Of a DNA stretch of 14,306 nucleotides, positions 1-14,241 are shown piece by piece. Below the pieces are notes generated by a model. That model had not been told where the DNA came from. It did no database searches and saw nothing but the letters and a program-made list of their open reading frames with translations. The stretch comes from a bacterium (lineage in GTDB: Bacteria > CG2-30-53-67 > CG2-30-70-394). Position 1 is the first letter of the stretch; each line of letters opens with the position of its first letter. The position numbers and the translations under genes were made by a program. Location of the stretch: positions 1 to 14,306 of the forward strand of contig JAJRSX010000152.1 in the NCBI GenBank assembly GCA_024278555.1, read 5' to 3'.

Positions 1-117
1 CCCTCGCTCCTCGGCGGCGACGGCTTTGCCACCCTCGCCGAGGCGATGCGCCTGGAGCGCTTCGAGACCCGCCGCCTCGGCGACGACCTGCTCCTCACCG
101 GCCGGATACGGCGGTAG
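1..117 (+). CDS. ribD: C-terminal fragment of a RibD-like riboflavin biosynthesis deaminase/reductase (5' end outside window)
   Basis: Reading from base 1, 38 codons end at TAG (115-117). The tail has an LLGGDG motif followed by an AEAMRLERFETRRLGDDLLL stretch. The reductase domain of RibD typically ends with a similar pattern: an LLGG element, a short helix, then a strand like VRRLGDDLLL near the C terminus. RibD deaminates and then reduces the pyrimidine intermediate of riboflavin synthesis in the cytoplasm. No catalytic residues lie in this fragment, so the call rests on the C-terminal pattern only. The gene is convergent with rmlD, and no other riboflavin gene follows inside the window. 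Another member of the RibD C-terminal (DHFR-like) reductase family remains possible. Confidence 0.62.
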   Translation, partial: PSLLGGDGFATLAEAMRLERFETRRLGDDLLLTGRIRR

Positions 118-119
118 GA

Positions 120-200
120 GGGGGCCATGCCCCCGATCCACGCCACCGGCGTGGCGGGCCGTCGGCCCCACCCGGGATCGCGGCCATGGCCCGCCCCTAC
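120..200. other. Cluster of short GC-rich stem-loops between convergent genes
   Basis: Three perfect hairpins follow one another right after the ribD-like stop codon. They are GGGGGC-CAT-GCCCCC (120-134), CCACGCC-ACC-GGCGTGG (138-154) and GGGCC-GTC-GGCCC (156-168). A GGCCATGGCC palindrome follows near 189. None has a T-run, so these are not classical intrinsic terminators. They could act as a bidirectional transcription barrier or mRNA 3' end protection for the two convergent genes, or be remnants of a REP-like element. The rest of 118-254 shows no gene. Confidence 0.5.
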
Positions 201-254
201 CGACAAGCCGCACCCAAAGGATGCACCTCCGCGATGGCGTGCGCCGCGCCCCCC

Positions 255-1130: not shown

Positions 1131-1298
1131 GGGGGCTCGCTCTGCTCGCGGGATGGGGGGTGGGGGATGAGGGGATGGTCGGCCGCGGCGCGGCCACATG
1201 ATCTTTTCGTGGGTGGCTTCCCTGGGAATCTCGTCCGGCCGTAAGGCCATCCTTCCCTACCCCCTGGCCCCCATCCCTGGGATGGGCGCAGCGCGCCC
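1131..1298 (-). repeat. Dispersed inverted-repeat element, copy A (upstream of rmlD)
   Basis: The gap between rmlC and rmlD holds an element that recurs upstream of flgK and flgA. Shared parts, in top-strand order, are a GCTCGC-NNN-GCTCGC box touching the downstream ATG, a G-rich arm (1151-1178), hairpin GGCCGC-GGC-GCGGCC (1181-1195), a core containing ATCTTTTCGTGGGTGGC (1201-1217), hairpin GGCC-GTAA-GGCC (1237-1248), and a C-rich arm (1247-1277) partly complementary to the G-rich one. Two further hairpins lie at the rmlC end: CCCATCC-CTG-GGATGGG (1270-1286) and GGGCGC-AGC-GCGCCC (1284-1298). The second directly follows the rmlC stop. On the minus strand the element keeps an open frame in phase with rmlD that encodes a PDEIPREATHEKI stretch. 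Confidence 0.85.
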
Positions 1299-1844
1299 CT
1301 ATTCCGGTAGTTGTTCCGTCGCGCTGCCGAGGAGCGGGTGGTGCCGGTCCTTGCGTGACAGGAGCGGCTCGGTGATCGGCCAGTGGACGTCGATCTGCGG
1401 GTCGGACCAGAGGATGCCGCGGTCGTCCTCCGGGTCGTAGTAGTCGGTGCACTGGTAGACCACCTCGGCCATGTCGGAGGTGACGCAGAAGCCGTGGGCG
1501 AAGCCGGGGGGGATGTAGAGGAGCCGCCGGTTCTCCGCCGACAGGACCGCCCCGGCCCATTCGCCGAAGTGGGGCGAGCTCCGGCGGATATCCACCGCCA
1601 CGTCGAAGATCTCCCCGACCACCGCCCGCACCAACTTCCCCTGGGGGTGGCGGAGCTGGTAGTGGAGGCCGCGCAGGACCCGCAGGGCGGAGCGCGAGTG
1701 GTTCTCCTGGACAAACTCCACGTCGATGCCGCCGGCGCGGTACTTCTCCCGCTGGTAGACCTCCATGAAGAAGCCGCGGGCGTCACCGAAGAGCTCCGGC
1801 TCGATCTCGATCACCCCGGGGAGCTGCGTCTCACGGAAGATCAT
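1299..1844 (-). CDS. rmlC: dTDP-4-dehydrorhamnose 3,5-epimerase RmlC
   Basis: RmlC epimerises C3 and C5 of dTDP-4-keto-6-deoxyglucose, the third step to dTDP-L-rhamnose. The 181-residue protein has the family's normal length and cupin pattern. DARGFF is at residues 21-26, RGLHYQ with the putative catalytic His61 at 58-63, PPGFAHGF at 112-119, and the VVYQCTDYY segment at 128-136 carries the conserved tyrosine (Y130). The ATG at 1844 overlaps the rmlA TGA by four bases (ATGA). It has a good ribosome site, AAGGAGG, about nine bases upstream, and it gives the canonical N terminus. The frame is open further upstream, but only inside rmlA. Translational coupling to rmlA is likely. Confidence 0.96.
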
Positions 1845-2725
1845 CCCCAGCGCCCCTCCTTCTCCAACAACAGGTCGCGCAGGTAGTCGGCGTACTCCCC
1901 CGTGCCCATCGCCTCGGCGAGACGGCCGAGCTGGGCGTCGTCGATGAACCCCTCGTGCCAGGCGATCTCCTCCACGCACCCCACCTTCAGCCCCTGGCGG
2001 TGCTCGATCGCCTCGATGAAGTCGGAGGCGGCGAGGAGCGAGCTGTGGGTGCCGGCATCGAGCCAGGCGACACCACGACCAAACGCCTCCACCTGCAGCT
2101 CACCCCGTTCGAGGTAGACCCGGTTGAGGTCGGTGATCTCCAGCTCACCGCGCGCCGACGGTTTGAGGGCGGCGGCGTACTCCACCACCCGGCGGTCGTA
2201 GAAGTAGAGGCCGGGGACCGCGTAGCGCGACCGGGGGCGCTCCGGCTTCTCCTCCAGGGAGATGGCGCGGCCGGACTCGTCGAACTCGACGACGCCGTAG
2301 CGGCGCGGGTCGCGCACCCGGTAGGCGAAGATCACCGCCCCCTCGGTGAGACCGGCGGCACGGGAGAGGACCATGCGGAGGTCGTTGCCGTAGAGGACGT
2401 TGTCGCCGAGGACCAGGGCAACGGGGTCGTCGCCGATGAAGTCGCGCCCGAGGATGAAGGCCTGGGCGAGCCCCTCCGGGCGCGGCTGCTCGCAGTAGCT
2501 GAGTTCCAGACCGAACTGGCGGCCGTCGCCGAAGAGGCGGCGGAAGAGGGGGAGGTCATGGGGGGTGGAGATGATCAGGATCTCCCGGATCCCCGCCAGC
2601 ATGAGGGCGGAGAGGGGGTAGTAGATCATCGGCTTGTCGTAGACCGGCAGGAGCTGCTTGGAGACCGCCAGGGTCACCGGGTGCAGCCGGGTGCCGGCGC
2701 CGCCGGCGAGGACGATCCCCTTCAT
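1841..2725 (-). CDS. rmlA: Glucose-1-phosphate thymidylyltransferase RmlA
   Basis: RmlA joins dTTP and glucose-1-phosphate to form dTDP-glucose, the committed step of dTDP-L-rhamnose synthesis. The 294-residue protein starts with the nucleotidyltransferase signature [13 protein letters not shown] (6-18). It continues with [16 protein letters not shown] (22-37), [10 protein letters not shown] (80-89) and the metal-binding GDN motif (107-109). The length matches the classic short RmlA family, which is often feedback-inhibited by dTDP-rhamnose. The ATG at 2725 overlaps the rmlB TGA by four bases and follows a strong G-rich Shine-Dalgarno (GGAGGG). The longer open frame upstream lies within rmlB and is not needed. 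Confidence 0.97.
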
Positions 2726-3798
2726 CCCACCCTCCCCTCTCCGGTGCCGAGGCGCTCGCGCCGGTAGGCACCGCTGGCCACCCGATCGCACCAGGTGCGG
2801 TTCTCCAGGTACCACGCCACGGTCTTGGCGAAGCCGGTATCAAACGACTCTTGCGGCCGCCAGCCGAGATCGCGCTCGATCTTGGTGGCGTCGATGGCGT
2901 AGCGGCGGTCGTGGCCGGGGCGATCGGCAACAAAGGTAATGGCGTCGGCGTGCGGCCGACCGTCGTCGCGCGGGGCGAGGCGATCGAGGTGGCCACACAG
3001 GGTCCTCACCACCTCCAGGTTGGTGTGCTCGTTGAAGCCGCCGATGTTGTACACCTCACCCGGCGTGCCCGCCTCCATCACCCGCCGCATGCCGCGGCAG
3101 TGGTCGTCGACGTAGAGCCAGTCGCGGATGTTGCCGCCGTCGCCGTAGACCGGCAGCGGCTTGCCGTCGAGGCAGTTGAGGATCATCAGCGGGACGAGCT
3201 TCTCGGGAAACTGGTAGGGGCCGTAGTTGTTCGAGCAGTTGGTGGTGAGGACCGGCAGGCCGTAGGTGTGAAAGTAGGCGCGCACCAGGTGGTCCGCCGA
3301 CGCCTTGGAGGCGGAGTACGGGGAGTTGGGGGCGTACGGGGTGGTCTCGGTAAAGAGCCCCTCGGCACCGAGAGAGCCGTACACCTCGTCGGTGGAGACC
3401 TGGAGGAAGCGGAAGCGGTCACGCCGTACGCCACTGAGGGTCTGCCAGTAGGTGAGCGCCGCATCCAGGAGGGTGAAGGTCCCGACGACGTTCGTCTGCA
3501 CGAAGGCGGCGGGGCCGTCGATGGAGCGGTCCACGTGCGACTCGGCCGCCAGATGGAAGATCCCGTCCGGCTGGAAGTCGGCGAGGAGGGCGGCCACCGC
3601 CGCCCCGTCACAGATGTCGGCGTGGACGAAGCGGTGGCGCGGGTGGTCGAGGAGGGGGCCCAGGGAGTCGAGATTCCCCGCATAGGTGAGGGCGTCGAGG
3701 TTGGCGACCTCGTGCTCCGTCTCGGTCAGGAGCTGGCGCACCAGGGCGGAACCGATGAACCCGGCACCGCCGGTGACGAGAAAACGCTGACCGTCCAT
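2722..3798 (-). CDS. rmlB: dTDP-glucose 4,6-dehydratase RmlB
   Basis: RmlB converts dTDP-glucose to dTDP-4-keto-6-deoxyglucose using tightly bound NAD. The 358-residue protein is an extended short-chain dehydrogenase with the GGAGFIG dinucleotide motif (10-16), [10 protein letters not shown] (83-92), the STDEVYG loop with catalytic Asp/Glu (135-141), and the YSASK motif (161-165). All expected catalytic residues are visible. It is the first gene of rmlBACD and lies 57 bp downstream of fliW on the same strand. No convincing terminator is visible in that gap, so read-through from the flagellar operon is possible. A weak GGGG ribosome site precedes the ATG. No sigma-54 or strong sigma-70 promoter was recognised in the gap. 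Confidence 0.97.
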
Positions 3799-3855
3799 GG
3801 CCCCTAGTAGACGGGTTGGCAGACCAAGGGCGCAAGCTCCGCCGCGGCCCGAACC

Positions 3856-4293
3856 CTACGCGGAGAGCCCCTGCACGACCCGATAGCGCGTGTCGTACGC
3901 CGAACGGGTCAGGAGGAGCTGGGCCCCGAGACCCTCGGCGCGGTTGATGAGCAGGGGCGCCTGAAGGTTCGCGGTGATCTTTTCCGGGTCGTCGCTGAGG
4001 GTGAGGATGACACGCATGATCCCCTTCGCACGGTCGTCCAGGTGGACGGCGGAGAGATCACCGTGTCCGAGACGCGGGTCGTAGCCACCGCATACCGCCT
4101 GTGGATCGACCACCGCAAAGGCGAGGGCCGGCTCCTCGGTCGACTGGAGCCACTCGAAGGGGGCGACCTCCGCCACCTCCACAAGGACGTAGTCGTGGAA
4201 CTCCTCGAAGCCGGGGATGCCGTCGGCAAAACGGATCACCGCCCCCGCCGCCACCTCTACCTCTCCGAGCTGGTCGCTGTGGATCGTCTCCAT
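3856..4293 (-). CDS. fliW: Flagellar assembly factor FliW
   Basis: FliW binds and inhibits CsrA, and is itself sequestered by flagellin, so it links flagellin mRNA translation to filament export (known from Bacillus and Campylobacter). The 145-residue length is typical. The signature RFADGIPGFEEFHDYVL (21-37) and the C-terminal ITANLQAPLLINR (106-118) followed by GAQLLL (123-128) are family hallmarks. The ATG at 4293 lies four bases after the csrA stop and has a clear GAGGAG ribosome site inside the end of csrA. This supports the start and implies coupled synthesis of regulator and antagonist. The open frame extends further upstream, but only through csrA in another phase. Confidence 0.95.
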   Translation of the reverse strand: METIHSDQLGEVEVAAGAVIRFADGIPGFEEFHDYVLVEVAEVAPFEWLQSTEEPALAFAVVDPQAVCGGYDPRLGHGDLSAVHLDDRAKGIMRVILTLSDDPEKITANLQAPLLINRAEGLGAQLLLTRSAYDTRYRVVQGLSA

Positions 4294-4297
4294 CCCC

Positions 4298-4531
4298 TCA
4301 CTCCTCACCACGGACGCGGCCGGCGAGACCGGTGAGCCCCCCCTTGGGCCCACTGGCGGCACGGCGATTTTCCGCCTGGATGGTTTCGAAGAGCTCGCCC
4401 CGGTAGACCGAGACGTCGGCGGCGGCGTCAATCCCGAGGCGGACCTGCTTCCCCCGGATCTCCAAAACCTTCACCTGGATTCCACCGCCGATGACGATGG
4501 TCTGCCCTGACTTCCTTGTCAGAATCAACAT
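4298..4531 (-). CDS. csrA: Carbon storage / translational regulator CsrA
   Basis: CsrA is a small homodimeric RNA-binding protein that binds GGA motifs in 5' leaders, and in flagellated bacteria it often represses flagellin translation. This copy has 77 residues. It has the conserved MLILTRKSGQTIVIG strand, LGIDAAADVSVYR, and the RNA-binding residues L4, R6 and R44. About 15 residues after the IQAEN helix form a Gly/Arg-rich tail, which is within the family's range. The ATG at 4529-4531 is preceded by only a weak GGGA site. The 48-base gap from flgL contains GGA triplets (in GAGGAGGAGG and GGGACA), which could allow autoregulation, but this is inference. It sits between flgL and fliW, as in many deltaproteobacterial and Gram-positive flagellar clusters. 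Confidence 0.97.
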   Translation of the reverse strand: MLILTRKSGQTIVIGGGIQVKVLEIRGKQVRLGIDAAADVSVYRGELFETIQAENRRAASGPKGGLTGLAGRVRGEE

Positions 4532-4579
4532 GATGTATGTCCCGTGGTCGCGCTGCGGTGGCCTCCTCCTCGAACGCCA

Positions 4580-5752
4580 TTATAGGTAATCGAGCAATGA
4601 TCGCTGTAGGACCCGCGCCGCGGTCCCCAGGGTGGCCTGGTAGACCGCCTCCGTTGCGCTGAGGTTGGTGATTGCGGTGGCCATGTCAACGTCTTCGATC
4701 TGTGAACGGAGCCCCTCGATGGTGATCGACCTCTGGGACAAGTCATTCTTTGCGGATTCCACCATATTGAGACGACCACCGATAACCCCCTGCCCCTCGC
4801 TCATCTGACCAACCCCCTGGTTGATCTGGTCGATGATCGTCTGGATGGCATCCTGATCGTCGTTCTCCAGGGCAAACTTGAACTCTTCCAGGGTCCCGAA
4901 AAGGCTCACCCGTCCCGAGTCGGTGGCGCCGTCCATGTTGCTGTCACCGAGGAAGAACTGGTGGCCGTGGACGTTGGCGGTCACCGTCTGCCCCTCACCC
5001 ACGGAGATCTGGCTGTCGTTGCCGTCACCGCGGTAGACCATGTGCGGGGTGATGAGGAAGGTGTCGTTGGCGGCCGGTGTACCGCTGATGGTCACCTGGT
5101 TGCCCTTTCCATCAAAGTCGATCGGGGCGCCGTCGGTGAAGCTGCCGGTGGCGGTGGTGGCGTTGGTGCCGACCTCGACCACCTGGTAGGTGTTGGCGGC
5201 GGTAAAGCGGATTCGGTAACGGGAGCCGGAGAGCGCCTCCGGATCGAAGGTGGCGGTGGCGATCGTGCCGCTGCCGGTATTACCGGCCTCGGCCGCGACC
5301 GTCAGGTTGCGCACAAAGGGGGGCTGGTCGGTCTGATAGCCGCCGAAGAGGTAGCGTCCCCCAAGCTCGCTGTTGGCGAGACGCTTGACCTCGTCGAGCT
5401 GCTGGGTCACCTCGGTGGCGATCACCTGCCGCTGGTCCGAGTCGAGGGAGCTGTTCGCCGCCTGGATGGCCAACTCCAGGGAGCGATAGAGGACCTCCTG
5501 GGTCTGTCCGAAGACGTTCTCCGAGACGTTCAGCCTGGAGGTCACCGATGACAGGTTGCGCTCGTACTGGTCGTTGCGCGCCTGCACCGCCTTCAACCCG
5601 AGGACCCGGTAGGCGCCGCTCGGATCGTCCGACGGGTGGTTGATCTGCCGTCCGGTGGCAACCCGCTCCTGGCTGGTGAGCAGCCGCCGGCCGCCCCGCG
5701 CCAACTGGGTGCGGATATTCCCGAGGAAGGTATTTTGGGTCACGCGATACAA
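4580..5752 (-). CDS. flgL: Hook-filament junction protein FlgL (HAP3), TTG start
   Basis: FlgL is the second junction protein between hook and filament and is exported by the flagellar type III system. The 390-residue protein has the flagellin-like N-terminal coiled-coil region, including LTSQERVATGRQINHPSDDPSG (25-46, written here as a family signature), and a C-terminal helix ending VLQRSLLDYL. Residues about 157-237 form an inserted beta-rich domain that resembles one in FlgK. The start is a TTG at 5752 with GGAG six bases upstream. An in-frame GTG at 5743 gives MTQNTF and has poorer ribosome-site spacing. No ATG fits. The gene is 32 bp downstream of flgK. FlgN is the expected export chaperone. 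Confidence 0.95.
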   Translation of the reverse strand: MYRVTQNTFLGNIRTQLARGGRRLLTSQERVATGRQINHPSDDPSGAYRVLGLKAVQARNDQYERNLSSVTSRLNVSENVFGQTQEVLYRSLELAIQAANSSLDSDQRQVIATEVTQQLDEVKRLANSELGGRYLFGGYQTDQPPFVRNLTVAAEAGNTGSGTIATATFDPEALSGSRYRIRFTAANTYQVVEVGTNATTATGSFTDGAPIDFDGKGNQVTISGTPAANDTFLITPHMVYRGDGNDSQISVGEGQTVTANVHGHQFFLGDSNMDGATDSGRVSLFGTLEEFKFALENDDQDAIQTIIDQINQGVGQMSEGQGVIGGRLNMVESAKNDLSQRSITIEGLRSQIEDVDMATAITNLSATEAVYQATLGTAARVLQRSLLDYL

Positions 5753-5784
5753 GGGCTACTCCATCCCCGTGTTATCGGCCGAGG

Positions 5785-7449
5785 TCACATATTCAGGAGG
5801 GTCTCGAGCATCTGGTCGGCGGTCGCGATCACCTTGGCCGCTGCCTGGTAGGAGCGCTGGAACTCCACCAGGTTTGCCGCCTCCTCATCGATGGAGACCC
5901 CGGAGACCGCGTCGCGCTGGGCCTGTACCTGGGAGACCACCAACTCCTGGCGCTCGAGCCCTTTTTGCGCCTGGGCGCTGTTGACCCCCGCTTGGGAGAC
6001 GAGACCGGAGATCGCCTCGGTCAAGGTGGTCGAGCCGCCGCCCATGGTCCCGGTGGTGGCGAGGTCGGCAATCGCTATCGCCGTCTTGTTGTCGCCGGGG
6101 AGACCGGCCGCGGTCGACGAGGCGACCACCAGTTGCGGGTTGGAGACGAGGGTGGAGTCGACCTGCATCGAGGTGTAGTAGCTCGCCCCCGGTGCGATCG
6201 AGAATGTGTCGCCGCTGGCCGGCGGCCCGCCGCCGTTGGTGATCGCCACCTCGACCCCGCCGAAGGCGATGGTCGCGCCACTGGTGTAGTTGCCGGCGGC
6301 GGCGGCAATGACCGTCGCGCCGCTGGTGGTATCCACCACCTGGTAGGTATCGGTGGCGGTGAAGGTGATCTCGTAGTCGTGGCCGGTGAAGGCGGGGCCG
6401 TCCACCACCGCCGGCGTACCGATTGCCGCGCCCCCGGTGTTGGCGCCGCCCGCCCCGGCGGTCACGGGGGCGGTAAAGAAGGGGTGGCCGGTGGTCCCGT
6501 CGAGGGCGTAGCCGGCAGCGTGGCTCGCGTTCACGTTGGCGGCGAGAAACACGGCGATCTCGTTGAGCCCCGCCTGCACATCGGGGATGTCGGTGCGGAT
6601 CACCTGCAGGGCGGCGCCGATCCGGCCGCGCTCCGGGAGGTCAAAGAAGGAGTTCGAGCCGCCACCCTGCAACACCGAGAGGGTCGGCAGGCCGTTGGCG
6701 TCGTTGACCACCTCGATCTCCTGCGCCTGCACCCCCTGGACCAGGGTCTGCCCCTTCACCTGGACGGTGAAGTCGAGGGGGTCGCCGCTCTCCACCACCG
6801 ACATCTCGGTGAGGTTCGCGAGACGACCGAGGAGGGCGTCGCGGGTGTCGCGCAGGTCGTTGGCGTCGTTTCCCCCGGCCTCGGCCGAGATGAGCGCCCG
6901 ATTGGTGTCAGCGATCTGGGCGGTGATGTCGTTGACCGTCGAGACCGACGCCTCCAGGTCCGAGCGCATGTCCACCGCCACCCGATCGATGCCGTCGGCA
7001 TAGAGGGAGAACTGGCGCGCCAGAGCCTCCCCGTTGGCGACCACCGCCTGGCGCTCCGCCACCCCCTCCGGGGTCACCGCAAGCTCGTGCCAGGCGGAGA
7101 AGAAGGCGGAGAGGGACTCGGAGAGCCCCCCCACCTGCGACTCGCTCAAGACCTCCTCGATGTGGCTCGCGGCGGTGGAGAGGAGGTCGAGCTGGCCCCG
7201 CGCCTGCTTCTCGGTGAGGAGCTGCTGCTCCAGGAAGCTGGAGGTGATGCGCTGGATCGACTCCGGCCTCGCCCCGGTACCGAGCAGCCCACCGGGCACC
7301 AGCCGCGGCCGGGTGGCGGCGGAAAAGACCTCCTGCCGGCTGTAACCGTCGGTGTCGGCGTGGGAGATGTTGTGCGCCGTCGTCTGCACCCGCATCTGGG
7401 CCAGCTCCAGGGCGCGACGGCCCATGTCGAGGATGCCGGAGAGGGACAT
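5785..7449 (-). CDS. flgK: Hook-filament junction protein FlgK (HAP1)
   Basis: FlgK is the first junction protein assembled on the hook tip, exported through the flagellar type III system. The 554-residue protein has the rod-hook N-terminal signature RVQTTAHNISHADTDGYSRQ (20-39). Its C terminus has NLVEFQRSYQAAAKVIATAD (526-545), and both ends form the D0/D1 coiled coils. Residues about 340-422 are a beta-rich insert similar to one in FlgL. The ATG at 7449 has no Shine-Dalgarno of its own. A repeat element touches it directly, and a 40-codon frame in that element ends in TAA overlapping the ATG (TAATG), so translation may be coupled to the element. A 191-bp gap separates it from flgN. Confidence 0.96.
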   Translation of the reverse strand: MSLSGILDMGRRALELAQMRVQTTAHNISHADTDGYSRQEVFSAATRPRLVPGGLLGTGARPESIQRITSSFLEQQLLTEKQARGQLDLLSTAASHIEEVLSESQVGGLSESLSAFFSAWHELAVTPEGVAERQAVVANGEALARQFSLYADGIDRVAVDMRSDLEASVSTVNDITAQIADTNRALISAEAGGNDANDLRDTRDALLGRLANLTEMSVVESGDPLDFTVQVKGQTLVQGVQAQEIEVVNDANGLPTLSVLQGGGSNSFFDLPERGRIGAALQVIRTDIPDVQAGLNEIAVFLAANVNASHAAGYALDGTTGHPFFTAPVTAGAGGANTGGAAIGTPAVVDGPAFTGHDYEITFTATDTYQVVDTTSGATVIAAAAGNYTSGATIAFGGVEVAITNGGGPPASGDTFSIAPGASYYTSMQVDSTLVSNPQLVVASSTAAGLPGDNKTAIAIADLATTGTMGGGSTTLTEAISGLVSQAGVNSAQAQKGLERQELVVSQVQAQRDAVSGVSIDEEAANLVEFQRSYQAAAKVIATADQMLETLLNM

Positions 7450-7571
7450 TAGGGCTCGCTTCGCTCGCAGGGATGAGGGGTGGGCTCGCTGCGCTCGCGG
7501 GATGGGGGATGGGGGGACGGTTGGCCGCTACGCGGCCAGATGTTTGTTTCGTAGATGCCTTCCATCGTCAT
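7449..7571 (-). CDS. Possible 40-residue leader peptide encoded by repeat copy B
   Basis: From the ATG at 7571 (a second in-frame ATG is at 7565) a 40-codon frame runs through the repeat and ends with TAA, whose last base is the A of the flgK ATG. The predicted peptide contains IYETNIWPRSG near its start. It then has two ERSEP units from the GCTCGC boxes and is rich in Pro, Ser and Arg. Homologous frames are present in the copies upstream of rmlD and flgA. No ribosome site is obvious. It may be a translation-coupling leader or a chance open frame in a conserved repeat. No function is proposed. Confidence 0.25.
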   Translation of the reverse strand: MTMEGIYETNIWPRSGQPSPHPPSRERSEPTPHPCERSEP

Positions 7572-7612
7572 CTCATCGGCCCGAAGGGCCGTCCTTCCTT
7601 ACTCCCTTACTT
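7451..7612 (-). repeat. Dispersed inverted-repeat element, copy B (upstream of flgK)
   Basis: This element fills most of the gap between flgN and flgK. It has two GCTCGC-NNN-GCTCGC boxes (near 7455 and 7486), where the other copies have one equivalent box, so a unit of about 31 bp is duplicated here. It has a G-rich arm, hairpin GGCCGC-TAC-GCGGCC (7523-7537), a core with TTCGTAGATGCCTTCCATCG (7548-7567), hairpin GGCCC-GAA-GGGCC (7578-7590), and a diverged C/T-rich right arm. The remaining bases to the flgN stop (7613-7640) show no recognisable feature. It is the most diverged of the three copies on its right side. Confidence 0.85.
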
Positions 7613-7640
7613 CCCCACCTCTCTAATCCGTAGCTGTTCC

Positions 7641-8168
7641 TCACGCCGTCTCCTGAAGCACGGCGCCGCGACTCTTGCCCTCGGCAACCACGCCCTCGCC
7701 ACCGTAGAGACCTACCGCCTCTTCGGCCTCGCGGCGGACCATCTGCACGATGCCGTGGATGGTGTCAACCGAGACACCCAGGAGGTGGTGGGCCACCTCA
7801 CCGCGACGGCGAACCTCCGCCGCCACCCGGGTGAGCTGGCGGCGCAACGACTCCAGCTCCCGGCGATCTGCCGGCGGCAGCCGCTCGAGCACCGCGCCGA
7901 CGCTCACCGTATCGGCCTCCATCCCCAGGTGTCGCCCAACCTCCGACAGGCTGGCGCTGCGCGCCGCCCCCACCACCCCCATCCTCTCGAGGAGCCGGTC
8001 GGTCTCGGTGCGGACCTCCCCCAGGCCGGGGGCGCCCACCCGCTTCAATACCTCCTGTTGCCGATCCAGCAGGGCGGCGAGGCGCTGAAAGAGGTCGGAC
8101 TCCCGCTCCATGTTGCGCAGGAGGGCATTGATGCTGTCGAGGGCCTCGGGGGCCAGGGGATCATTCAT
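7641..8168 (-). CDS. flgN: Flagellar export chaperone FlgN
   Basis: FlgN-family proteins are cytoplasmic, helical chaperones that bind the C termini of FlgK and FlgL and bring them to the export gate. This 175-residue protein is largely helical and charged. It begins MNDPLAPEALDSINALLRNM, with repeated LLxxL-type heptads, and is rich in Glu, Arg and Leu. Similarity to FlgN is by overall pattern, size and its place directly before flgK and flgL rather than by a strict motif. The ATG at 8168 has an AAGGAG ribosome site six bases upstream and overlaps the end of flgJ by eight bases. No flgM-like gene lies between flgJ and flgN. Confidence 0.8.
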   Translation of the reverse strand: MNDPLAPEALDSINALLRNMERESDLFQRLAALLDRQQEVLKRVGAPGLGEVRTETDRLLERMGVVGAARSASLSEVGRHLGMEADTVSVGAVLERLPPADRRELESLRRQLTRVAAEVRRRGEVAHHLLGVSVDTIHGIVQMVRREAEEAVGLYGGEGVVAEGKSRGAVLQETA

Positions 8169-8520
8169 CGGGCTCTCCTTGCATGGGGTTGCCTTGCACC
8201 GTCCCTGGCGCACCGCGGGTAAGACGCGCCGCCCACTGGCGCTCGAGCATCTCGGCAATACCGAAGCCGCCGCGCTCGGAGGAGATCTTGGCGAACTGCG
8301 AGTCACGCAGGTCGATAAAGATCTCCTCGCCGTTCGAGCGACCGAGGAGGGTGTTGCCGGAGCTCGCCGACCGGCCCGCCTTCATGACCATCTGGAGGAA
8401 GAGCGACTCGAACTGCTGCGCCGCCTTATGCAACGCCGCGGGCGAGTCTCCCCCCGCGGTCCGCCGCACGGCGGTGTCCGGCGGCTGGGTCAGCCCGGGC
8501 GGTAACGCGACCGGCCTCAT
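8161..8520 (-). CDS. flgJ: Rod-cap / rod-binding protein FlgJ, single-domain form
   Basis: FlgJ scaffolds rod assembly in the periplasm. This 119-residue protein has only the rod-binding domain: AAQQFESLFLQMVMKAGR (33-50), then IFIDLRDSQFAKISSERGGFGIAEML (66-91, a family signature). It lacks the C-terminal muramidase domain found in enterobacterial FlgJ, so a separate peptidoglycan hydrolase is expected elsewhere. A short Gly/Pro-rich tail follows. The ATG at 8520 shares its A with the flgI TGA (TGATG) and has a GGAG site eight bases upstream, supporting the start and coupled translation. Confidence 0.92.
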   Translation of the reverse strand: MRPVALPPGLTQPPDTAVRRTAGGDSPAALHKAAQQFESLFLQMVMKAGRSASSGNTLLGRSNGEEIFIDLRDSQFAKISSERGGFGIAEMLERQWAARLTRGAPGTVQGNPMQGEPDE

Positions 8521-9755
8521 CAGATGATCTCCAGCTCGGCGTGCAGGGCACCCGCCGCCTGCAACGCCTGGAGGATGGCGATCAGGTCGCCGGGGCCGAC
8601 GCCGAGGGCGTTCAACGCCCCCACCACATCCGCCAGACTCACCCCCTCGGGGACCACCACCAACCGCCGCTCCTCCTCCTTCACCTCCACGGTGGAGTCG
8701 GTCGCCTGGACCGTCTCGCCGCCGGTGGACAGGGGCGACGGCTGGGAGACCAGGGGGGTCTCCTTGATCGAGATGGAGAGACCGCCGTGGGCGATGGCGA
8801 CGGTGGAGAGACGTACCTGCGAGCCCATAATCACCGTGCCGGTGCGCTCGTTGAGGATCACCTTGGCGGCACGGTCCTCGGTCACCTGCACCTCCTCGAG
8901 GCGGGCGGCGAACGGCACCGGGTGTTTCAGGTACTCCTCGGGCACCGCCACATCCACCGTGCCGGCGTCCGCGGCCACCGCCAGGTGGCGACCGAACCGC
9001 TCGTTGATCGCCACCGCGAGCCGCTCGGCGGTGGTGAAGTCCGGGTGGCGCAGGGCGTAGCGCAGGTGGTCGGTCGCGGCGAAGTCGACATCCACCTCCC
9101 GCTCCACCAGCCCGCCGGAGACGATCCGGCCGGTGGTCGGGTGGTTCTTCTGCACCCCGCCACCGCCGCGCCCGCCAAAGGAGAAGCCGCCGATCGACAC
9201 CGCCCCCTGGGCCACCGCATAGACCCCGTTGTCCGCCCCCTTGAGGGGGGTCATCAACAGGGTGCCGCCGCGCAGGGACTCACAGTCGCCGATCGACGAG
9301 ACGGTGACGTCGAGGCGGCTCCCCTGGCGGGCGAAGGGGGGGAGGTCGGCGGTCACCATCACCGCGGCGATGTTCTCCACCTTCAGGGCCGAGGCATCCA
9401 CGTTCACCCCGAGGCGCTGGAGCATGGCGGTGAGCGACTGGCGGGTGAAGGCCGCCTTCACCCCGTCACCGGTCCCGTCGAGCCCCACCACCAGGCCGTA
9501 GCCGATGAGCTGGTTGCTCCGCACCCCGGTAAGGTCCGCCACATCCTTCAACCGCGTGGCACCGGCGTTCGCCGGCGCCAGAAGGGCGAGGAGGAGGGCG
9601 AGAAGCGCGAAGGCAGGTGGCCGTAGATTCGGGCCGACCCGCAGGCCGCGACCGCAGGCGTACTCGGTCGTACGTCGAGGATCGCGGCCGAGGACGCGGC
9701 CCGAAGGTACGGCCAGATGCGCGCCCGTAACCGCATCTTCAGAAAAATTCTCCAT
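8520..9755 (-). CDS. flgI: Flagellar P-ring protein FlgI with an altered N terminus
   Basis: FlgI forms the periplasmic P ring around the rod. The mature part is intact. A hydrophobic segment (about residues 48-61) ends in PANA before GATRLKDVADLTGVRSNQLIGYGLVVGLDGTGDG, the classic FlgI start (quoted as the family signature, residues 65-98), and the C terminus ends in a long helix. The start is a problem. The only ATG in frame near the signal peptide is at 9755, overlapping the flgH TAA (TAATG). It gives 411 residues, with about 40 extra in front of the signal peptide. Those residues come largely from a palindromic element (9618-9715). An out-of-phase ATG at 9736 opens MRLRA, which would look like a normal signal-peptide start without the insertion. 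No good Shine-Dalgarno precedes 9755. Confidence 0.93.
   Translation of the reverse strand: MENFSEDAVTGAHLAVPSGRVLGRDPRRTTEYACGRGLRVGPNLRPPAFALLALLLALLAPANAGATRLKDVADLTGVRSNQLIGYGLVVGLDGTGDGVKAAFTRQSLTAMLQRLGVNVDASALKVENIAAVMVTADLPPFARQGSRLDVTVSSIGDCESLRGGTLLMTPLKGADNGVYAVAQGAVSIGGFSFGGRGGGGVQKNHPTTGRIVSGGLVEREVDVDFAATDHLRYALRHPDFTTAERLAVAINERFGRHLAVAADAGTVDVAVPEEYLKHPVPFAARLEEVQVTEDRAAKVILNERTGTVIMGSQVRLSTVAIAHGGLSISIKETPLVSQPSPLSTGGETVQATDSTVEVKEEERRLVVVPEGVSLADVVGALNALGVGPGDLIAILQALQAAGALHAELEII
9618..9715. repeat. 98-bp interrupted palindrome inside the flgI 5' region
   Basis: The two halves are reverse complements with interruptions. TGGCCGTA (9618-9625) pairs with TACGGCCA (9708-9715), then TTCGGGCC (9628-9635) with its partner at 9698-9705, then GGCCGCGA (9644-9651) with its partner at 9682-9689. 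The centre is a GTACTCGGTCGTAC-type core near 9660-9673. This makes a cruciform-capable element, or a long RNA hairpin when transcribed. Its sequence differs from the three other repeats, although they share the GGCCGTA and TTCGGGCC motif style. It looks like a separate miniature element inserted between the flgI start and its signal peptide. Confidence 0.8.
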
Positions 9756-10510
9756 TAGAAGGGCCATACCTTGTCTACGACCGTCGCCAACCACCCCTGC
9801 CGCTGCTGGTCGGCAATCGCGCCGACGCCGTAGTAGCTGATCGAGGCGTCGGCGATCTGGGTGGAGGAGATGGTGTTGGTGGGGGAGATGTCCTCGGGCC
9901 GGATGATCCCGGTGAGGAGGATGTACTGGTTCTCCTCGTTGAGGTTGATCCGCCGGCGCCCCTCGATCACCAGGTTGCCGCTCGGCAGCCTCCTCGTGAC
10001 CACCGCGGTGAGGGTGGCGTCGAGCTTGCCGCTGCGCTCGGTGGCACCGTCGCCGGCGAACTTCTTCGAGCTGGAGGCGGCCAGGAGCGACGAGAGGTCG
10101 AGGCCGATGGCCGCGGCCCCGTTGCCGTTGGCGGTGGCCACCCGCCCCTTGCGCGCGTTCGCCGCCGCCTCCAGGCCGAAGATGGAGGGGATCCCGAACT
10201 TGACGTCGTTCTTCCGGTTGAGGTCGGTCTTCGCCGATTTCGAGGCGCTGGCGGTCTCCTTCACCTGGATGGTGACGATGTCCCCCACCTGCCGTGCCCG
10301 GTGGTCGGTAAACAGGGAGCCGCGCCCCTCGGTCCATAGAGAGCCGGTCAACCGCGGCGGCGCCGGCGGCGGTTCCACCTCCGCCTGCGGCAACACCTCC
10401 GAATCCAGGGGACGGGGCATTCCGCGATGGTGGGCGGCACAGCCGAGGCTCGCCAGCATGGCGACCGCGGCGACGGAACGCCAGGGGAGCTGACGGAAGA
10501 GACAATTCAT
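9755..10510 (-). CDS. flgH: Flagellar L-ring lipoprotein FlgH
   Basis: FlgH forms the outer-membrane L ring and is lipid-anchored. The 251-residue protein starts with a basic n-region and hydrophobic segment (12-23) ending in Cys24 (LASLGC). The residue at -3 is Ser rather than the usual Leu, so the lipobox is slightly off consensus. The body has SLWTEGRGSLFTDHRARQVGDIVTI, and the C terminus TNTISSTQIADASISYYGVG to DKVWPF is diagnostic of FlgH (family signatures). The ATG at 10510 shares its A with the flgA TGA (TGATG), and a GGAGGTGG ribosome site lies just upstream. The 3' end overlaps the flgI start by one base. Confidence 0.96.
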   Translation of the reverse strand: MNCLFRQLPWRSVAAVAMLASLGCAAHHRGMPRPLDSEVLPQAEVEPPPAPPRLTGSLWTEGRGSLFTDHRARQVGDIVTIQVKETASASKSAKTDLNRKNDVKFGIPSIFGLEAAANARKGRVATANGNGAAAIGLDLSSLLAASSSKKFAGDGATERSGKLDATLTAVVTRRLPSGNLVIEGRRRINLNEENQYILLTGIIRPEDISPTNTISSTQIADASISYYGVGAIADQQRQGWLATVVDKVWPF

Positions 10511-11298
10511 CAGAAGGCCACCTCCACGGTCGCGCTGTCGATCACCGTCCCCATCACCACCTTGCCGGAGGTGGCGTTGGCCACTCGCACCCGCGCATGG
10601 TGTCCGCCCGCCTCACGCACAACGCCGCGCGCCCGCACCAGCAATGGGCCACGGTGGGCAACGAGGGTGACGCGATCGCCACGGCGGACCACCGGAACCG
10701 GCTTGAGCTGCGAGGCGCGCACCACGTCGCCGGCGCGCACCGAACGGCTGAGCTGCATCCCCACCGCGTCCGCCAGGCGCACCACGCTGTCACGCGCCAT
10801 CGTCCCCCACGGCAGGTACTCCTGCCGCAGGGAGTCCGCCTCCACCACCGTGCCGCGCCGGAGGTCATGGGCCGCCACCCACACCGGGCGCCGCCGGTCG
10901 ATGGTGGCGTTCACCCGCAGGTGGCGCACCACGCCGCCCGCCGCCTCCACCTGCAGGTGGAGGACGACGGTGCCGGCCAGGGCGACGCCGCGGCCACGTG
11001 AGAGGGAGAGGTGGAGGGGACCGGCAGGCAGGCGCGGGTCGCCGGTGAGGACGACGCGCTTTACCTGCCACTGGTCGCCGCTCTCCTTGAGCTCACCCTC
11101 GACGTACCGCTCCACCTCCCGCTGTACCCTTGTGGTGTCGAGGCGCTGGGGGGAGACAGCGCCCGCCCGTGCACCCTGGGCCAGGAGGAGGAAGACAAGG
11201 CCGAGGGCGAGGGACAGCGGGAGGTGGAAGGGGAGGCGCGCTACGCGCGCCGGGATGAGGGCTGAGGGGTGGGGGGTGAGCGGAGCGGTGGCCGCCAT
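10510..11298 (-). CDS. flgA: Flagellar P-ring assembly chaperone FlgA, start within a repeat
   Basis: FlgA is a periplasmic chaperone for P-ring assembly. The C-terminal SAF-type region is clear: DLRRGTVVEADSL, then SVRAGDVVRASQL, RRGDRVTLVA, and a final VMGTVIDSATVEVAF. A hydrophobic segment ending AQGARA before GAVSPQ indicates a Sec signal peptide (cleavage near residue 45 with this start). Between that segment and the adjacent repeat element there is no ATG, GTG or TTG. The nearest in-frame ATG (11298) lies in the loop of the repeat's GGCCGC-CAT-GCGGCC hairpin, giving 262 residues. Other in-frame ATGs lie at 11331 and 11337, also in the repeat. None has a good Shine-Dalgarno. The gene is thus certain but its start is not. 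Confidence 0.9.
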   Translation of the reverse strand: MAATAPLTPHPSALIPARVARLPFHLPLSLALGLVFLLLAQGARAGAVSPQRLDTTRVQREVERYVEGELKESGDQWQVKRVVLTGDPRLPAGPLHLSLSRGRGVALAGTVVLHLQVEAAGGVVRHLRVNATIDRRRPVWVAAHDLRRGTVVEADSLRQEYLPWGTMARDSVVRLADAVGMQLSRSVRAGDVVRASQLKPVPVVRRGDRVTLVAHRGPLLVRARGVVREAGGHHARVRVANATSGKVVMGTVIDSATVEVAF

Positions 11299-11396
11299 GC
11301 GGCCAACAATCTTTTCGTGGGTGGCATCCATCGTCATTTCATCGGGCCCGTAGGGCCGGCCTGCCCCCCCATCCCTCATCCCCCACCCCTCAGCCC
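11235..11396 (-). repeat. Dispersed inverted-repeat element, copy C (5' end of flgA)
   Basis: This is the best preserved copy. It has hairpin GGCGCGC-TAC-GCGCGCC (11235-11251), left arm 11259-11280, hairpin GGCCGC-CAT-GCGGCC (11290-11304), core containing ATCTTTTCGTGGGTGGCATC (11309-11328), hairpin GGCCC-GTA-GGGCC (11345-11357), and right arm 11375-11396. The two 22-base arms are reverse complements with one mismatch, so the unit looks like a miniature inverted-repeat element of about 160 bp. It reaches into the flgA reading frame. The bases from 11397 to the flgG stop at 11457 are C/T-rich and show no gene. Confidence 0.88.
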
Positions 11397-11456: not shown

Positions 11457-12245
11457 CTACCGAATCAAATTGTTCGCCGTCTGCAGCATCTCGTTGGCGG
11501 TCTGGATCGACTTCGAGTTCACCTCGAAGGCGCGCTGGCTCATGATCATGTTCACCAACTCCTCGGCGATGGAGACGTTGGAAATCTCCAAAAAGCCCTG
11601 ACTCAGGGTGCCGATGCCGCTCTCCCCGGGCACCCCGGTGGTCACCGCGCCGGAGGAGTCGCTCGGCTGGTAGAGGTTGCGGCCGATGGGGCGCAGCCCC
11701 TGGGGGTTGGGGAAGGTGGCCAGCTCGATCGTCCCCACCACCGAGGTGGTGGAGCTGCCGGCCTGCAAGACCGAGACGGTGCCGTCGGAGCCGATGGTGA
11801 TGGAGGTGGCATCGGTGGGGATGGTAATCGACGGCTCCAGGGGATCGCCGTTGGAGGTGACCAGCTGGCCGGAGCTGTCGCGCTTCAGGGCGCCGGCGCG
11901 GGAGTAGCCGATCTCCCCGTTCGGCTGCACCACCTGCAGGAAGCCGGCGCCCTCGATTGCCACGTCGAGCTCACCGCCGGTCTGGCGCAGGTCCCCCTGG
12001 GTGAAGACCTTGCCCACCGCGGCGGTCTTCACCCCGAGCCCCACCTGGATCCCGGTGGGGGTCTGGGTGGAGGCGGAAGAGGCGGTCCCCGGGGCGGTGG
12101 TCGACTGGTAGAGGAGATCCTGAAAATCGGCGCGCGCCCGCTTGAAGCCGGTGGTGTTCGCGTTCGCCAGGTTGTGGGCGATCGTGTCGATATTGAGCTG
12201 CTGCGCCTCCATGCCGGTAGCAGCGGTAAACAGGGCTCGGATCAT
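11457..12245 (-). CDS. flgG: Flagellar distal rod protein FlgG
   Basis: FlgG builds the distal rod. The 262-residue protein is the standard length. Its N terminus is [20 protein letters not shown] followed by [14 protein letters not shown], the rod-hook signature. The C terminus has [20 protein letters not shown] and then [14 protein letters not shown], both diagnostic of FlgG. The ATG at 12245 has an AAAGGAG ribosome site seven bases upstream, and the flgF stop lies 12 bases before it. The gene is followed by a 60-base C/T-rich stretch and repeat copy C before flgA. Confidence 0.97.
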
Positions 12246-13277: not shown

Positions 13278-14192
13278 ATGCCGACGACCCTCCTCAGCCC
13301 GACCCAGCTCAACCGCCTGGTAGACGACAACGCCCACCTCGCCGCCCCCTCCAACGCGGTCCAGCGGCTCCTCGACGTCACCTCCGACCCGGAGCTCGAG
13401 GTCCCACCGCGGCAGGTGGCGGAGATCCTGTCGCGGGAGCCCGCCCTCGCCGCCCAGGTCCTCCAGTGGGTCAACTCGGCGATCTTCGCCCTCCCCAACC
13501 CGGTGGCCGACATCGGCCGCGCCATCCCGCTGCTGGGGCTCAACCGCATCCGCGCCATCGCCCTGGCACAGGCCTTCTTCTCCCGTACCGCCCACCAACA
13601 GATGGCGACCTACGGCATCGACGGCCGCACCTTCTGCCTCCACTCCCTGGAGACCGGCCTCGGCGCCGCCCACCTGGTCCGCCTCTCCGAACCGGGACGG
13701 GAGGGCGAGGCCTTCACCGCCGGCCTGCTGCACGACCTCGGCATGCTCCTGGTCGATGGGATCACCAAGGGGCGCGACATCGCCGCCCCCCTCCTGCCGG
13801 CCGAACGCCCCCAGTGTGAAGCCGAGCGCGACCTCCTCGGCACCGACCACGCCGCCCTCGGCGCCGCCCTCACCCGCCGCTGGCGGCTCCCGGAAGAGCA
13901 CCAGACGGTCATCGCCAACCACCACCAGGCGCCCACCCACCGCAACCACCTCGACGGCTGGAACCTCAACGACGCCGCCCTCGCCGCCCCCCCGGAGACG
14001 CCGCCGCTGCTCAAGGCGGTGCAACTCGCCGACCGCCTCTCCGAAGAGCGGGTCGGCATCACCCCCGCCGACCCGGAGGCACGCTGGCTGCGCCCATTCG
14101 CCAACCTCCTCCCCGACGACGAGAGCCGCATGGCCCTCGAACACGAGATGGACCAGGCCGCCGCCCAGCTCGCCGCGATGATGGGGGAATAA
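13278..14192 (+). CDS. HDOD-domain signalling protein
   Basis: HDOD proteins are degenerate HD-domain relatives linked to signalling, motility and c-di-GMP networks. They are non-enzymatic or of unknown activity. This 304-residue protein has an N-terminal HDOD region. LSREPALAAQVLQWVNSAIF (51-70) is typical of the first half, and AIPLLGLNRIRAIALAQAFF (82-101) is the usual G-x-x-R helix. GLLHDLGMLL (149-158) keeps an HD pair (152-153), and VIANHHQAP lies further on. No receiver, GGDEF or EAL domain is fused. The ATG at 13278 has GGAG six bases upstream. The frame is open far upstream over flgF, but the N terminus fits this start. It is divergent from the flagellar operon, and no sigma-28 or sigma-54 promoter was recognised for it. 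Confidence 0.9.
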   Translation: MPTTLLSPTQLNRLVDDNAHLAAPSNAVQRLLDVTSDPELEVPPRQVAEILSREPALAAQVLQWVNSAIFALPNPVADIGRAIPLLGLNRIRAIALAQAFFSRTAHQQMATYGIDGRTFCLHSLETGLGAAHLVRLSEPGREGEAFTAGLLHDLGMLLVDGITKGRDIAAPLLPAERPQCEAERDLLGTDHAALGAALTRRWRLPEEHQTVIANHHQAPTHRNHLDGWNLNDAALAAPPETPPLLKAVQLADRLSEERVGITPADPEARWLRPFANLLPDDESRMALEHEMDQAAAQLAAMMGE

Positions 14193-14241
14193 CAGCGGAC
14201 AGCGGACAGCGGACAGCGGACAGCGGACAGCGGACAGCGGA
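14193..14241 (+). repeat. Tandem repeat: seven perfect copies of CAGCGGA
   Basis: Seven exact copies of the 7-mer CAGCGGA begin at the base after the HDOD stop codon and end at 14241. The unit length is not a multiple of three, so a frame through it repeats every 21 bases. Perfect copies suggest recent slippage. No spacers are present, so it is not a CRISPR array. The remaining 65 bases to the window end show no gene. Confidence 0.95.

Follow-up and report, generated by a model that had tools for sequence, protein, structure and literature searches.

Repeat copies at three gene junctions

The stretch analysed here (the window, 14,306 nucleotides (nt) long) is contig C130 of the 3.06-Mb draft genome of an uncultured groundwater bacterium, and it carries three copies, designated A, B and C, of an intergenic repeat element. 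The copies lie at the rmlC-rmlD, flgN-flgK and flgG-flgA junctions, and all the genes adjoining them are on the minus strand. The identities of rmlD, rmlC, flgK, flgA and flgG were borne out by family models, and the gene at the flgN position gave no NCBIfam match. Three related copies had been reported at these places by a first-pass annotation made from the sequence alone, and the repeat search of the window recovered them (families D1, D2, D6 and D7).

Copy A (1131-1298, minus strand) was found to make up the entire 168-nt spacer between the rmlC stop codon (1299-1301) and the rmlD ATG (1128-1130). Read in gene direction, it consists of the stop-side hairpin GGGCGCGCTGCGCCC (1284-1298), a G-rich arm (1253-1283), hairpin 1 with the central stretch and hairpin 2 (1177-1252; 1252-1177 in L015, which begins at window base 1), a C-rich arm (1150-1176) and the start-side motif GCGAGCAGAGCGAGC (1135-1149), which ends 4 nt upstream of the rmlD ATG. 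Copy B lies on the minus strand in the 191-nt spacer (7450-7640) from the gene at the flgN position (stop at 7641) to flgK (ATG 7447-7449). The element itself takes up about 7450-7623 and leaves a residue on the stop side of the spacer; its two hairpins and central stretch occupy 7519-7594, with a first GCGAGCGCAGCGAGC at 7484-7498 and a second GCGAGCGAAGCGAGC at 7454-7468, 4 nt upstream of the flgK ATG. Copy C (11235-11396, minus strand) is situated between flgG (stop 11457-11459) and the 5′ end of flgA, and comprises a G-rich heptad arm (11362-11396), the hairpins and central stretch (11286-11361), a C-rich arm (11252-11285) and the terminal perfect hairpin GGCGCGCGTAGCGCGCC (11235-11251), the form seen at stop sides, which here falls within the flgA reading frame. 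The arms of copy C, earlier described as 22 bases with one mismatch, indeed matched at 95% over 22 nt. Predicted RNA folding was better than all 200 dinucleotide shuffles for copy C (z -5.0) and for copy A (z -3.55), and no better than the shuffles for copy B (z -0.31; n = 200), the 5′ arm of which is degenerate.

Copy C does not precede a start codon; it overlies the 5′ end of flgA and covers the only possible flgA start codons. No in-frame ATG, GTG or TTG was present from copy C to the FlgA signal peptide, and the in-frame starts were found only within the element, with ATGs in the central stretch (11337-11335) and in the loop of hairpin 2 (11298-11296). Translation of flgA probably begins within copy C (at 11337, or at 11298 in the loop of hairpin 2) or else at a non-standard codon. 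The predicted FlgA N-terminus is apparently encoded by the repeat element (window 11235-11337).

Anatomy, placement and end asymmetry of the element

A covariance model was built from 24 copies, and its search against the same genome gave 149 matches, which represent 122 distinct places; with copy C as the query, 68 matches at E ≤ 0.01 were obtained in this genome, copies A and B among them. In gene direction, a full copy runs from the stop codon through a GC hairpin, a G-rich heptad arm (GGGATGA and variants), hairpin 1 (GGACGGCCC-TGC-GGGCCG), an asymmetric central stretch (ATGAGATGACGATGGAAGCCACCCACGAAAC), hairpin 2 (TGGCCGC-GCA-GCGGCCAACC, with GCCGGCCGCAGGCCGGCACC in a second subfamily), a C-rich heptad arm, the start-side motif GCGAGC-NNN-GCGAGC and about four C to the ATG, and the element measures about 120-200 bp in length. 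Besides GGGATGA, the heptad-unit types included GGGGTGG, GGGATTA, GTAGAAA and others. Hairpin 1 showed some double changes that preserved pairing, and arms of the same copy paired modestly better than swapped arms (46/70, p = 0.01). The sequence GGGRTGRGGGRTGRGGG occurred 199 times in the genome versus 7 times for the reversed control, and no Rfam family matched the window at gathering scores.

Other repeats were seen in the neighborhood of the element. A second repeat family (TAGGAGGGGGTTGTACCCCCGATCCCGGCCC ... GGATCGCGGGTGCAACCCGCTCCTACC) often stands directly after element copies, mainly those of the GCCGGCCGCAGGCCGGC-hairpin subfamily; it was observed at window 114-215 and after the core in L104, L066, L118 and L123. 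In two copies, L118 (C68:21930-22101) and L125 (C72:11265-11434), the central stretch is broken by GTAGAAA heptad arrays. A tandem array of the heptamer ACAGCGG at window 14192-14241 recurs in one spacer of contig C155.

For gene calling around the matches, a codon-usage model was fitted to the retrieved stretches, and individual starts may therefore be wrong. The element spacers were codirectional, convergent and divergent in 99, 8 and 4 cases, versus 413, 71 and 73 for the gene pairs of a sister genome (Fisher p = 3e-4); divergent spacers, which have two starts each, were under-represented. Across 92 codirectional spacers, the residue left on the stop side had a median of 1 nt and was at most 10 nt in 73%, and that on the start side had a median of 5 nt and was at most 10 nt in 63%, when 7% were expected that close to a start from length-weighted random insertion into the other spacers of the genome; any G- or C-rich stretch or hairpin was counted as element, which makes the residues look a little shorter than they are, but both percentages remain far above 7%. 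The terminal motif peaked 1-7 nt upstream of start codons on the gene strand, and 44 of the 61 start-side motif copies ended within 10 nt of a start codon. Between convergent genes, the element met stop codons at both ends.

The element thus occupies the spacer from stop to start, and random insertion does not account for its placement, as the first-pass annotation had argued. The special relation to starts proposed there was not supported, since the opposite end abuts the upstream stop just as tightly; closeness to starts is half of spacer filling and no sign that starts are aimed at. Placement exactly at start codons was confirmed genome-wide for the terminal motif, but copies A and B fill the whole spacer from the upstream stop. 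Location after stop codons, which had been named as an outcome that would count against the proposal, was observed alongside closeness to starts, and the distance to genes was not random.

A common direction relative to the downstream gene had likewise been noted, and it was true for copies A, B and C but not for the family, in which 75 copies had the same direction, 28 the opposite one and 12 lay between convergent or divergent genes (the remainder at contig ends). For codirectional copies of this genome, the ratio of same to opposite was 39:5 at 80 bits or more and 36:23 for weaker copies; it was 7:14 in the sister genome, which had been left out of model building. As the bias was absent from the weaker copies and from the sister, it belongs to a single subfamily of a single species and could stem from spacer-to-spacer copying, which would preserve orientation.

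The two ends of the element were not alike. Of the 92 spacers, 31 had a perfect hairpin no more than 14 nt from the stop and 9 had one within the same distance of the start, while 37 carried the GCGAGC direct repeat at the start and 5 carried its mirror at the stop; the G-C excess was +0.28 after stops and -0.29 before starts. Because the element is an inverted repeat, it would show equal ends if unselected. The predicted RNA hairpin energy was -2.1 kcal/mol for the broken form GCGAGC-NNN-GCGAGC and -8.3 kcal/mol for the perfect form. Selection against a closed ribosome-binding site, which we infer from these differences, would be the simplest cause of the asymmetry. The start-side motif was also present ahead of starts whose spacers had no recognised core (16 of 61, mostly adjoining C-rich heptads), and start-adjacent hairpins were not enriched in genes without the core. 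That the start-side motif forms a stable Watson-Crick hairpin was considered and rejected, given its low predicted energy and the depletion of the perfect form at starts.

Comparison with the sister species

The closest relative that we compared, and the sole one from its genus, was the metagenome-assembled genome Nitrospirae bacterium CG2_30_70_394 (the sister), whose FlgG is 93% identical; the analysis covered 709 kb, in which 27 element places were detected. No element match was obtained in 58 more distant relatives at E ≤ 1e-8, and the family, which is non-coding and palindromic, has so far been found only in this genus.

Altogether, 33 orthologous junctions were compared between the two genomes, and the species differed in the presence and absence of the element. 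The flgN-flgK junction was filled in both, with a diverged copy in the sister (L255 9739-9859, 33.8 bits), as were other junctions. At rmlC-rmlD, the sister has an 86-nt spacer with no core, and the start-side motif is present as GCGAGAGAAGCGAGC-CCTC-ATG. Empty sites, for which the first-pass annotation had suggested looking at orthologous loci, were found as well: at flgG-flgA the sister spacer is an empty 12 nt, flgA starting 12 nt after flgG, and the clearest case was C193:11578, where the sister reads TAA-CCC-ATG; the core was also lacking at C123 and C68. Sister orthologues began at the same codon without the core. The start-side motif stood at 5 of 13 orthologous sister starts versus 15 of 586 background starts (p = 6e-6), even without the core; it may be left over from lost elements or serve a purpose itself.

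A leader of about 370 nt, lying between an element copy and the next gene (L109, minus strand, about 2225-2590; contig C147), was conserved in the sister and gave no Rfam match at the gathering score.

Origin and possible role of the element

We read the element, at a probability of about 0.55, as a repeat family of the kind of repetitive extragenic palindromes (REP) or miniature inverted-repeat transposable elements (MITE), most similar to the paired G-rich heptads known from Xanthomonas and shaped by selection at gene ends. It would spread as a parasite, either inserting into tight gene junctions or by the copying of one spacer over another, and selection at gene ends would later shape what was inserted. 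Perfect GC hairpins may be tolerated directly after stop codons, and the broken form GCGAGC-NNN-GCGAGC would prevail at starts, since ribosomes would be blocked by a perfect hairpin in that position.

The Xanthomonas heptad GGGAATC and the Nostoc heptad GGGGA(C/T)T form paired inverted G-rich repeats (PMC4692102; Rehm et al. 2015), and no function was found for the Xanthomonas pairs. Such repeats lie between aligned genes, rarely between divergent genes, and are often kept at orthologous places; their G-rich strand occurs within 50 bp after stops and their C-rich strand within 50 bp before starts (PMC4692102). The present element resembles them in its tandem G-rich 7-base units, its convergent pairs, its rarity between divergent genes, its frequent retention at orthologous places, and its G-rich side at stops and C-rich side at starts of aligned genes (here 99 of 111 codirectional). 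However, its unit is GGG[AG]TG[AG] with further types, not GGGNATC or GGGGA(C/T)T, its arms surround a central stretch and two GGCC hairpins, all of them conserved, and the motif at the stop end differs from that at the start. With REP and REPIN sequences (PMC3733652, PMC3116915), it shares short intergenic palindromes in many copies, inverted pairs, unidirectional genes and, at times, the supply of a stop codon. Unlike them, it has heptad arms, is seldom placed between convergent genes (8 of 111) and shows no link to the Y1_Tnp genes of the genome, and in place of the GTAG or CGTC of the REP families (PMC3733652) the conserved 5′ flank is GGAC at hairpin 1 and GGTT or GGTG at hairpin 2 (other strand). 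The MITE-like ERIC, RUP and Correia elements (PMC3049150, PMC2229807) are comparable in being about 100-170 bp long, intergenic, built as an inverted repeat and variable at orthologous places, and the inverted arms provide the terminal inverted repeats of a MITE. The arms here are nonetheless low-complexity heptads with no Rfam match in the window, and neither a parent insertion sequence (Y1_Tnp being the only one sought) nor a target duplication (the sister spacers being unalignable) was found.

Several observations weigh against a mobile parasite. No transposase was linked to the element, Y1_Tnp genes being the only ones sought; none of the four has the element nearby, and the 5-6.5-kb stretches around them gave only weak matches of 11-19 nt (E 0.05-0.4). 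The motif persists at some orthologous starts without the core, which would not be predicted of a pure parasite. Several core-less sister spacers are 50-110 nt long and unrelated, and loss in the sister or replacement of the spacer fits these as well as a gain in the present genome does. The copies have diverged to about 70-80% identity with no recent move visible, and the sister is about 80% identical, with spacers that do not align for the scoring of target-site duplications. Mobility and any machinery behind it are inferences, whereas the anatomy, copy number, spacer filling, end asymmetry and species differences were observed.

The first-pass annotation had suggested that the element may be kept where it can drive translation, and GCGAGC-NNN-GCGAGC might then act as a translation signal without Shine-Dalgarno through which the element drives, or couples, translation of the next gene. 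We regard this as unlikely. GCGAGC stood within 16 nt of 42% of element starts versus 0-6% elsewhere, the motif ends 1-7 nt upstream of the ATG in most copies, and its excess over background at the orthologous sister starts is the one fact that keeps the idea alive. However, the 16S tail was the normal CACCTCCTTTC and GCTCGC, the complement of GCGAGC, was absent from the 16S gene; Shine-Dalgarno-like hexamers were the leading start-proximal signal in both species; and many element starts have no motif, with sister orthologues using the same start codon without it. Moreover, anti-Shine-Dalgarno matches of at least 4 bases were found at 25% of element starts versus 44% of other starts (spacers of at least 25 nt) and 73% in tight junctions, and reading frames through the element were not conserved, central ATGs being rarely in phase with the downstream gene among the 75 same-direction copies. 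No observation showed that the element drives translation. Element-supplied starts or in-frame fusions were rejected as a general rule in view of these few in-frame central ATGs, flgA being the exception. Quite unlikely, in our estimate, is a portable intergenic module in which the stop-side hairpin closes the upstream message and the direct repeat replaces Shine-Dalgarno at the next start; if it were true, about 100 gene pairs would owe their stop-to-start junction to one repeat family. Folding of the transcript into a single long hairpin could also draw stop and start close to each other and let ribosomes cross the spacer to the next gene. Such bridging fits the inverted arms, the tight residues at both ends and the codirectional placement, orientation would not matter to it, and the predicted fold of copy A is closed between the base right behind the stop and a point 2 nt short of the ATG; it is nevertheless very unlikely, as the predicted folded path from stop to start was no shorter than in shuffled sequence (median 20 versus 20) and copy B folds no better than chance.

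Two other explanations concern how the element arrives. A REPIN moved by a REP-associated (Y1_Tnp) transposase, of which the genome has four, would agree with two inverted intergenic hairpins bearing similar 5′ tags (GGAC and GGTT), yet the tags are neither GTAG nor CGTC and the Y1_Tnp genes stand without the element, which makes this origin improbable. The Y1_Tnp matches themselves were located at L154 307-1152, L155 2837-3178, L156 1258-2160 and L157 2267-3202, and at least two are flanked by another sequence (GGGGTCAGGTCTT and similar repeats). The least credence is given to the other option of the first-pass annotation, insertion specifically beside start codons; CCATG would be one such target. 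The 44 of 61 motif copies close to starts would be explained by it, internal copies often run on as GCGAGCCCAT-CCC, one base off CCCATG, and at C147 the motif is followed by CCCC-ATG though the next gene starts 376 nt away; but the equal nearness of the other end to stop codons, the stops at both ends between convergent genes and the scarcity of two-start divergent spacers all argue otherwise.

At most of its sites the element is bounded by a stop and a start codon, much more often than random insertion would give, and each end varies with the kind of gene end that it meets. A general question thereby becomes open to test: are bacterial intergenic repeats tolerated parasites that selection prunes at ribosome-binding sites, or have cells come to use them as parts of the message? 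The similar heptad pairs of Xanthomonas, which are unexplained, may be another instance of this phenomenon.

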